The notes below the pieces were generated by a model, which worked only from the letters and a program-made list of their open reading frames with translations, was not told the DNA's origin and did not search any database. Of a stretch of DNA of 64,000 nt, positions 2,024 to 53,278 are shown piece after piece. The DNA comes from Nannobrachium achirus (taxonomy: Eukaryota; Chordata; Actinopteri; Myctophiformes; Myctophidae). Location of the stretch: assembly GCA_963921795.1 (NCBI GenBank), contig OY997639.1, forward strand, positions 62,342,894 to 62,406,893, in the 5' to 3' direction. The position numbers and the translations under genes are program-made. The stretch's first letter is position 1, and every line of letters starts with the position of its first letter.

Positions 2024-20694
<18,671 letters not shown>

Positions 20695-35166: not shown

Positions 35167-36980
35167 ATGCTGTCACTGAAAGTCTTTCTCAACGACAGGT
35201 TGACGGCGGCGGCCGAGGAGATATTCGGAGCGGTCGAAAAGACGATAGTGGAATACAAGGAGGAAATCCTGCGTTCAAAAGACCTGGAAATCAATCGTCT
35301 GCGGCTGCAGCTGAAGCTGCTCAAGTCAGGTCAGTTTGAATGATTCTGCGATCTTGCAGATCAAAGATCATCTCTACGTGAACGGCGTAGCGTCAGCTTA
35401 ATTCTACGTCGTTACTGTTTACATGTGCATTTCATCTGAAACGTTTGTCTTTTATTGTCCATAGTCCCTCAGTTGGAGAGATATGGAACCCAGCAGCAGC
35501 AACAACACAGCAGCAACCCTCCTCCTCCTCCTTCTCATCACCACCACCAGCAGCAGCAGCAGCAGCAACAACAGCACAACCATCCATCAATCCCCCCTCC
35601 TGTTCCCGCAGGAGAGGCCCCGGAGCCCCCGCAGTCGCACCACCACTGTGAGCACGAGCAGGACGGCAACACCAGCAGCAGCATGGACGAGGAGAACCCG
35701 GAGCCCTCCTCGCAGGTAGGGATGGGATCAGGCCTGGAATTTCGTCATTTTAGGGGCAAGGCCACTTGGCCTTTGGTGTTGTCCAATATTTGAGGGCACC
35801 AAGGCCAAATGCCAGGGCAGGAAGGCCATCAAATAAAACAAGATTTTAGTCCATTGAAAGAAGTTTTTGAATTTAAGGGACCAATCAAAGTCCCTGGATT
35901 GTTTTAAAGATGGGGACTCAGGAGAGTTAAGATTTCAGAAACTAAAAAAAAAAAAGGGTTAGGGTTAAGGTGTCTACATGACAAGAGACACCAGAGTCTA
36001 CTGTCTACATATTGACAAGAAAGAAACAGAAGAGAATGTGGTTCAGTCAGCTGGGGCATTAAGGCCACTGTGGCCTCAGGTCATGTCATTGGTTTGGTTT
36101 GAGGGGCATATGGCCAAACTGATGAACCATGAAATTCCTGCACTGGATGGGATGTTATGAAAATGTCATATCATGATTATTGTGACCAAAGAAATCGTGA
36201 TTTACGATATCGCGATAATCAAAATATCCACAACATCCATTATCCTGGGGCGGAACATTTGTAAAATAAAATAGCAGAGCTACAAGCTTGTAGATTGGCT
36301 ATAGAGATTTGGTATACGTACCTATATTATATGTACGTTTTACCAATTGATCCCAGTGCATGACGGTGGACGATATCACGATAAATTAAATCTCCACGAT
36401 ACGGTTATCGTGAGTGTTATTTTATCATGATAAACGATAATATCGCTTATCGTCCCATCCCTACTCGCAGGTCAAGAAGGAGCACCACCACCAGAAGAGC
36501 CAGCAGCAGCAGACAATCTCCAACAGCAGGCACTTCTGGATGAGCCAGGACGACGAGCAGCTCGACGGGCTCGAGTCGGACATCAAGGAGTTCATCTCCC
36601 CGTCGGGGCTGAAAGGCGGCAGCCTGCAGGACTCTGTGCTGCCCTTCCACTCGTACCCGTCCAACAGCAGCGGCGATGAGAACAAAGAGAAGCCCTACTG
36701 CTGCTCCGTGTGCGAGAAGCGCTTCGGGAACTGCTCGCACCTGGCGGCGCACATCAGGACTCACACGGGCGAGCGGCCGTTCAGGTGCGACATCTGCCGG
36801 AAGGCCTTCATCACGACCAGCGCCCTGAACAGACACCAGACCATCCACGCGGAGGGCAAGCAGTTCATATGCAACTACTGTGGGAAGTCCTTCAAGTGGA
36901 TGGAGTCTCTTGGCAGGCACATCAGAAGCGTGCACAAGAGAGAGACTAATATGCCTATAGAGACTAATATGCCTATATGA
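35167..36980 (+). CDS. C2H2 zinc-finger protein with three fingers (three exons; intron 2 is a transposon)
   Basis: Probable nuclear DNA-binding regulator; I cannot assign an orthologue. Exons 35167-35329, 35465-35715 and 36471-36980 join to 924 nt, 307 residues. Exon 1 (LTAAAEEIFGAVEKTIVEYK) is the N-terminal helix typical of a large teleost zinc-finger group. Exon 2 is Pro/His/Gln-rich (H4 followed by Q9) and ends MDEENPEPSSQ. Exon 3 opens VKKEHHHQ, then an acidic segment MSQDDEQLDGLESDIKEF, then three fingers: YCCSVCEKRFGNCSHLAAH, FRCDICRKAFITTSALNRH and FICNYCGKSFKWMESLGRH, joined by TGERPF- and AEGKQF-type linkers. Intron 2 is exactly a hAT-like insertion plus its target duplication, and without splicing the frame stops about 28 codons into the element. 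The C-terminus carries an 18-bp tandem duplication (ETNMPI twice). Confidence 0.9.
35717..36463. mobile_element. hAT-like transposon forming intron 2 of the zinc-finger gene
   Basis: Begins TAGGGATGGGA and ends TCCCATCCCTA. The flanking octamer CTCGCAGG is identical at 35709-35716 and 36464-36471. Element plus one octamer is 755 bp, exactly the intron 35716-36470. Without its nested insertion it would be about 322 bp, like the sister copy at 14990-15326. The hairpin at 36268-36305 is centrally placed. Confidence 0.93.
35729..36145. mobile_element. Nested hAT-like element inside the intron transposon
   Basis: Begins CAGGCCTGGAATTTCGTC and ends CATGAAATTCCTGCACTG. The octamer GATGGGAT is identical at 35721-35728 and 36146-36153. 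Same family as 2346-3394, opposite orientation. Confidence 0.9.

Positions 36981-41336: not shown

Positions 41337-53278
<11,942 letters not shown>

Follow-up and report, generated by a model that had tools for sequence, protein, structure and literature searches.

An abundant family of non-autonomous hAT-like DNA transposons, the termini of which double as splice sites, most likely (we put the probability at about 0.82) made an intron in a zinc-finger gene of Nannobrachium achirus and further introns in the coding exons of other genes. The zinc-finger gene lies in the window, i.e., the whole stretch of 64,000 nucleotides analysed here, and its features are collected in Table 1. At the DNA level, the structure of the insertions, their target-site duplications (TSDs), their coding context and strand bias, the uninterrupted orthologues and the continuous paralogous matches were all observed directly. 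From these observations we infer that the spliceosome removes the elements, so that this vertebrate probably harbours a hAT family that generates introns in the manner of introners.

Table 1. Features of the zinc-finger gene and its insert in the window, and of other copies, loci and homologues discussed in the text
Feature	Position	Strand	Remarks
Exon 1, coding part, zinc-finger gene	35167..35329	+	ATG at 35167; orthologue N-termini e.g. MQALRVFLNERLTAAAEEIFGAVEKTI
Exon 2	35465..35715	+	terminates ...CTCGCAG
TSD, copy 1	35709..35716	+	CTCGCAGG; its last G is intron base +1
Putative intron 2	35716..36470	+	GT-AG, 755 bp, phase 0
Left terminal inverted repeat (TIR)	35717..35727	+	TAGGGATGGGA; gives donor from intron base +2 onward
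Outer element, hAT-like MITE	35717..36463	+	322 bp of own sequence, not counting the nested insert and one copy of the inner TSD
Inner TSD, copy 1	35721..35728	+	GATGGGAT
Nested second hAT-like element	35729..36145	+	417 bp, ends CAGGCCTGGAATTTC / GAAATTCCTGCACTG
Inner TSD, copy 2	36146..36153	+	GATGGGAT
Right TIR	36453..36463	+	TCCCATCCCTA; within pyrimidine-rich tract (15/20)
TSD, copy 2	36464..36471	+	CTCGCAGG; gives AG of the acceptor and the base with which exon 3 starts
Exon 3, coding part	36471..36980	+	three C2H2 fingers, up to stop codon
Relative of outer family	15023..15323	-	starts exactly at TAGGGATGGGA; without nested element
Coding copy L040, GH1/klotho-like			HFK|VLL; Pfam match spans junction
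Coding copy L042, Ig			LTSHR|SDK; Pfam match spans junction
Coding copy L053, PKD			FVFQ|VVK; Pfam match on both sides
Coding copy L063, MINDY			QMEQ|VKL; Pfam match downstream only
Coding copy L067, kelch BACK			NISQ|EDI; Pfam match spans junction
Coding copy L077			GGGG|GSV; no Pfam match
Coding copy L088, HS6ST			FDIK|GED; Sulfotransfer_2; Pfam match spans junction
Coding copy L099, ZNF142-type C2H2			CYRQ|ALR; Pfam match on both sides
Coding copy L101, TGF-beta family			RPSQ|DRP; TGF_beta; Pfam match downstream only
Continuous paralogous matches	C23:36001238-36001448; C22:37207893-37208042; C24:40387231-40387392		
Junction-reading homologues			P0055, P0057, P0073, P0090, P0096, P0098, P0101, P0103, P0107, P0109

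The second intron of the zinc-finger gene consists of a 747-bp insert with the ends TAGGGATGGGA and TCCCATCCCTA, and the octamer that the earlier note had reported on either side of it is exact in both copies. Removing exactly the insert and one TSD (755 bp) restored the zinc-finger reading frame: when 35715 was joined to 36471, a 307-residue protein was obtained with the N-terminus of teleost homologues and three C2H2 fingers, reading ...PEPSSQ|VKKEHHHQ... at the joined exons. The junction letters are CAG|GTAGGG at the donor and CTCGCAG|G at the acceptor. Thus the earlier note was correct in equating the intron with the element plus its 8-bp duplication and the joined product with the original coding sequence, in deriving the donor GTAGGG and the acceptor CTCGCAG from the TSD and the element end, and in naming the C-rich terminus as pyrimidine tract; its stop at about 28 codons in the unspliced transcript falls instead at 25 codons. 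Three pairs in the window combine an exact 11-bp inverted repeat with an exact 8-bp direct repeat immediately outside it, at a distance of up to 3 kb; 30 runs of a first-order Markov simulation of the window produced none.

In the mechanism that we propose, an insertion into a target ending in AGG would create a donor from the G of the TSD and the TAGGG of the element, while on the 3' side the pyrimidine-rich terminus and the ...AG|G of the second TSD copy would provide tract and acceptor. As the TSD supplies the acceptor, removal of exactly the element and one TSD restores the original mRNA, and as both ends begin with the same letters (TAGGG...CCCTA), the splice-site arrangement would arise in either orientation. 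The signals in the window gene agree with U2-type introns, with the donor corresponding to MAG|GT, 15 pyrimidines in 20 positions and the acceptor CAG|G to YAG|G. The donor agrees with the consensus at seven of nine positions and ranks joint second (four tied) among the 83 GTs of the pre-mRNA, the top-scoring one being the donor of intron 1; by simple scores of pyrimidine content and context, the acceptor is second among 150 AGs, and candidate branch-like motifs lie 21-46 nt upstream of it.

Two further observations concern this gene and its surroundings. The C-terminus of its protein is a tandem duplication of the last residues (ETNMPIETNMPI, window 36942-36980), and several orthologues end otherwise (ENMPV, ENMPL or ENMPA), without this duplication. 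Near the gene, an open frame on the minus strand (43225-43524) matches the Atrophin-1 family (PF03154) in its C-terminal part and is rere/atn1-like.

The earlier note had taken the intron to be exactly one DNA transposon, whereas the insert comprises two nested elements, of 322 bp and 417 bp. A single 747-bp element was ruled out, as the 417-bp part has its own TSD and a stand-alone relative, and as a relative of the outer family in the window lacks it. This outer relative, at which no right TIR was seen, crosses the site of the nested insertion without interruption, and the family of the nested element also stands alone at 2346-3394 (minus strand) with its own TSD, CTAGACAC. Because the outer relative is uninterrupted and the nested element carries its own TSD, the sequence suggests that an intron of 330 bp came first and was lengthened to 755 bp later. 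The 322-bp hAT-like MITE is accordingly the element that would have made the putative intron, and the second hAT-like element landed afterwards, 12 bp inside the first. Inside the stand-alone relative at 2346-3394, another nested element was observed (2555-3087, 533 bp), with TIR bases matching at 12 of 12 positions (CAGGGGTCATCA) and the TSD TACATCGG, forming a second nested pair in the window.

The ancestral state of the zinc-finger gene was examined among its homologues. A protein search found 980 relatives, of which 120, mostly named teleost proteins, were listed and 105 of these aligned. There were no inserted columns at the junction; residues were present on both sides of it in 103 of the 105 homologues, and 62 of the aligned homologues have Q-V there, as in the window gene. 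The statement in the earlier note that this stretch is encoded without a break in related teleost proteins was thus borne out. By eye, ten homologues carry intron-1-like sequence followed by exon 2 and onward across the junction (Table 1); they look like unspliced genomic reading frames that have no intron at this position. Around the junction, P0107 and P0109 lack a few residues, and the contigs carrying P0073, P0096 and P0107 are 24.8, 13.2 and 8.5 kb in length, respectively. An insertion into an older intron was rejected, because the duplicated octamer extends over the edges of both exons, and because the ten homologues read through.

In a tree of 50 homologue rows and the query, the window gene was placed near Lampris, Myripristis and the gadiforms, with weak support. 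No near-identical protein was found, the best of the 50 tree rows showing 81% identity over 252 columns, and a search for proteins of the same species gave no lead. No retrocopy or empty allele was detected elsewhere in the genome by a search for the joined junction (31-mer, up to 3 mismatches). A scan of viral contigs matched 12 stretches, none of them a relative, and a separate scan gave two loci with a match; a search of a phage collection and a tRNA scan produced no lead.

The family was then surveyed in the window's own genome (G000; one assembly, 1.66 Gb). The 363-423 bp class alone contains 2,497 full-length copies with perfect TIRs, and the family total is at least that. AGG ends both TSD copies in 11 matches of 302-362 bp, 61 of 363-423 bp and 19 of 424-484 bp. 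The census covers the entries of the first two classes (302-423 bp), 72 in 71 loci (L031-L101), one site being represented on both strands; the window's own nested copy is not one of them. Since the copies were chosen by AGG-ending TSDs, dependence on AGG is an assumption of the survey, and controls were provided by the antisense strand and by five distinct copies taken without this selection; by eye, none of the five was in a coding context. The two TSD copies agree at 8, 7, 6 and 5 of 8 positions in 55, 13, 3 and 1 of the 72 entries, that is, at 7 or 8 positions in 68, with the last three bases fixed by the search pattern. In the window gene the agreement is 8 of 8, a TSD length of 8 bp being that of hAT elements, and comparison of its TIR with the Ac-type short TIR C/TAGGGATG showed that the first 8 of 11 bases are identical to C/TAGGGATGAAA. 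Both the 8-bp TSDs across the family and the Ac-type TIR uphold the hAT-like character originally assigned to the element.

Coding status was called by eye and with Pfam after setting aside the element and one TSD. Nine of the 72 entries are sense insertions within the open frame of a recognisable gene, eight of them supported by Pfam (Table 1); the ninth, L077, lies in a gene that we take to be ZNF608/609-like. With L097, described below, the genome-wide search that the earlier note had proposed, for other exons interrupted by the same family with a TSD ending in AG-G, was positive in ten further coding exons. Copies arranged as in the zinc-finger gene are present in nine other Pfam-supported exons and probably in a tenth, as expected of introners: homologous inserts occur as putative introns in the window gene and in these exons, the TSD and the terminus supply the splice sites, the joined frames are open, and three are colinear with known proteins. 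The junction falls strictly inside the matched domain in five of the ten (L040, L042, L067, L088 and L097), and alignments with the PDB entries of HS6ST3, klotho and KLHL3 are gap-free there. In a genome search, the joined junctions of the window gene and the nine matched their own loci in two parts, separated by the insertion, and paralogous matches run continuously over the junction for L101 (90%), L040 (91%) and L088 (79%), which is consistent with empty sites. The element has one orientation in six of the nine and the other in three. If it were retained, translation would end within 0-24 codons in each of the ten coding copies (after 0 and 5 codons in L042 and L101, respectively). The TSDs of the nine end in MAGG in 8 of 9 cases versus 27 of 63 for the rest, which includes L097 (p 0.011, post hoc).

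Several loci were noted beside these cases. About 73 kb from L101, the right half of its exon recurs at 99% identity (G000:C24:41324902-41325019); this is a recent duplicate and may share the insertion. Two AGG-TSD copies, L078 (G000:C12:53326522-53326934) and L046 (G000:C1:49668080-49668481), lie near the 5' ends of apparent genes, the former presumably coq2-like and the latter encoding a protein with an N-terminal signal-anchor-like segment. Both are possibly new introns in 5' UTRs or first exons; they have no Pfam match and were not counted.

The strand on which the coding copies lie was compared using frames that cross the junction and extend for 12 codons or more to either side of it; 84 of these were in sense and 93 in antisense. 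After 9 and 19 low-complexity frames, respectively, were dropped, 75 and 74 were kept, and Pfam was run on 23 of the sense frames, the first batch of which was chosen for coding appearance, and on 55 of the antisense frames (one shortened). Eight of the 23 sense frames had a match, while a single antisense frame, L097 (3Beta_HSD), was above the cut-off, so that the coding copies as matched were 9 sense versus 1 antisense (p 0.017). On the coding strand, L097 reads ...GCGCACCTCCAG|GTAGGGATGGGA...TCCCATCCCTACCTCCTCCAG|GCGGCC (...CTCCAG|GTAGGG...CTCCAG|GCGG); its TSD is CCTCCAGG, the downstream copy having three additional bases, which would belong to the intron, and the product after exact removal reads NVALAHLQ|AARGLRD. 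To judge from these letters, L097 is a tenth sense AGG case on its own coding strand, a strand assigned post hoc, and placing it there turned the count into 10 versus 0 (p 0.0014, likewise post hoc). L059, in a frame that we take to be PHLPP-like, was ruled out as an antisense coding insertion: by eye, its exon ends just before the insertion, and its Pfam match is below the cut-off.

These counts bear on whether the insertions merely break genes, being recent, disruptive, polymorphic or situated in decaying genes, with coincidental GT-AG ends. A TSD ending in AGG is expected in about 1/64 of insertions per strand, and the 61 matches, from both strands, to 2,497 copies come close to this expectation, indicating that such TSDs are not over-represented overall. 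Moreover, of 78 strongly conserved columns, 2 are changed in the window gene, which ranks 88th of 105 rows from the best, and none in the median row. (P0001 of Takifugu rubripes, in which the finger block is present twice in one predicted protein, was omitted from this conservation count and retained in the junction alignment.) The window gene is thus worse than most homologues, yet does not appear visibly decayed. Against simple breakage, the coding copies show the strand bias given above, and the reading frames are open on both sides of the insertions. TSD mismatches at the five free positions number 2 of 45 in the nine and 20 of 315 in the rest, a similarity suggesting that the coding copies are more than alleles of very recent origin, and in the window copy there was time for a second transposon to enter. 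We therefore regard gene breakage as unlikely.

Equally improbable, in our assessment, is that we are dealing with an ordinary MITE family as a whole, of which one copy became an intron in the window by an isolated stroke of luck, as in slc26a2 of notothenioids. The location of most AGG entries (62 of 72) outside recognisable coding sequence would suit this explanation; however, the survey of the classes from 302 to 423 bp already yielded ten more coding exons of identical anatomy, and 19 more AGG copies of 424-484 bp exist. We lean instead, with some reserve, towards a true vertebrate introner family of thousands of MITE copies with splice-ready ends, which would have formed many precise introns and may have been selected for splicing.

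The predicted RNA fold raises the question of how the elements would leave the transcript. In this fold the two TIRs, donor included, pair with a probability near 1, and the donor is buried in a helix of 11-12 bp with the 3' terminus. Such a helix could hinder U1 at the donor; it may be either an obstacle to U1 or a means of holding both splice sites together. Pairing of TIRs is also the trigger of SOS splicing. This process excises transposons from metazoan mRNAs (PMC13247085), but hairpin-triggered, non-spliceosomal removal with RTCB ligation is very unlikely here, because a hairpin forms on either strand and antisense copies should then be tolerated, whereas the coding copies are sense-biased (9 to 1 or 10 to 0) and canonical sites lie exactly at the frame-restoring positions. 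The claim of the earlier note that a hAT-like insertion became a functional intron is thus sustained for the de novo insertion and for the splice sites supplied by TSD and terminus, on the evidence of the orthologues and the ten further exons, while for splicing itself the case is one of inference.

The earlier note also held that clear vertebrate cases are rare, which needs some qualification, as a close vertebrate precedent is described in the available text of PMC12357937: intron 3 of slc26a2 in notothenioids consists of NTE-1 with a nested NTE-2. Both cases involve a teleost, a transposon with TIRs and TSDs inserted in an exon, and gt-ag sites within direct and inverted repeats, and in both a later second element lengthened the intron. 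However, the notothenioid element has a 4-nt TSD and tgt...aca ends, whereas the window family has 8-bp TSDs and TAGGGATGGGA ends, and one NTE-1-derived intron is described in that text, compared with eleven candidates here. In maize, Ds elements (Ac/Ds, hAT) are spliced as introns, as cited in PMC3260210 and PMC3443670; like the window family, they are hAT elements with an 8-bp TSD that behave in an intron-like manner when inserted in exons, and the TIR of Ds, given as C/TAGGGATGAAA in PMC3260210, has eight bases, TAGGGATG, in common with it. Ds is a plant element, whereas the present family is from a fish and removal of element and TSD restores the frame exactly. The splice sites of maize Ds are several and alternative. 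The primary papers on its splicing are reportedly Dennis 1988 and Giroux 1994.

Introners comprise many copies of one DNA-transposon-like family that form introns via splice sites in TSDs and TIRs, and the parts of Gozashti et al. 2022 (PMC9860276) available to us describe, as here, one family in different genes with splice sites arising by the TSD route. Unlike introners, most copies of the window family that were read lie outside recognisable coding sequence, and the introns are putative. Among animals and land plants, that survey recorded introners in two animal groups only, and in vertebrates it saw no pattern of gain. Earlier vertebrate gains include the melanocortin-receptor introns of ray-finned fishes, some with hAT fragments (PMC3151243), and 342 gains in human genes (PMC12124190); as far as the accessible sections of these reports go, their boundaries do not match an element plus its TSD, and they do not represent one family in many genes. 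No vertebrate introner family was present among the literature matches listed, which cover subscription papers only in part.

Vertebrates are described as gaining introns rarely, and the mechanism has seldom been seen at work. In this single genome, the source element, the target duplication and the interrupted frame can be read in eleven genes, and the eleven junctions permit direct tests of how new introns arise and persist in vertebrates and what becomes of them; the splice competence of Ac-type ends (TAGGGATG), from maize to fish, is likewise open to testing. Should RNA confirm the splicing, the family would stand as an example, from a vertebrate, of transposons that make introns.
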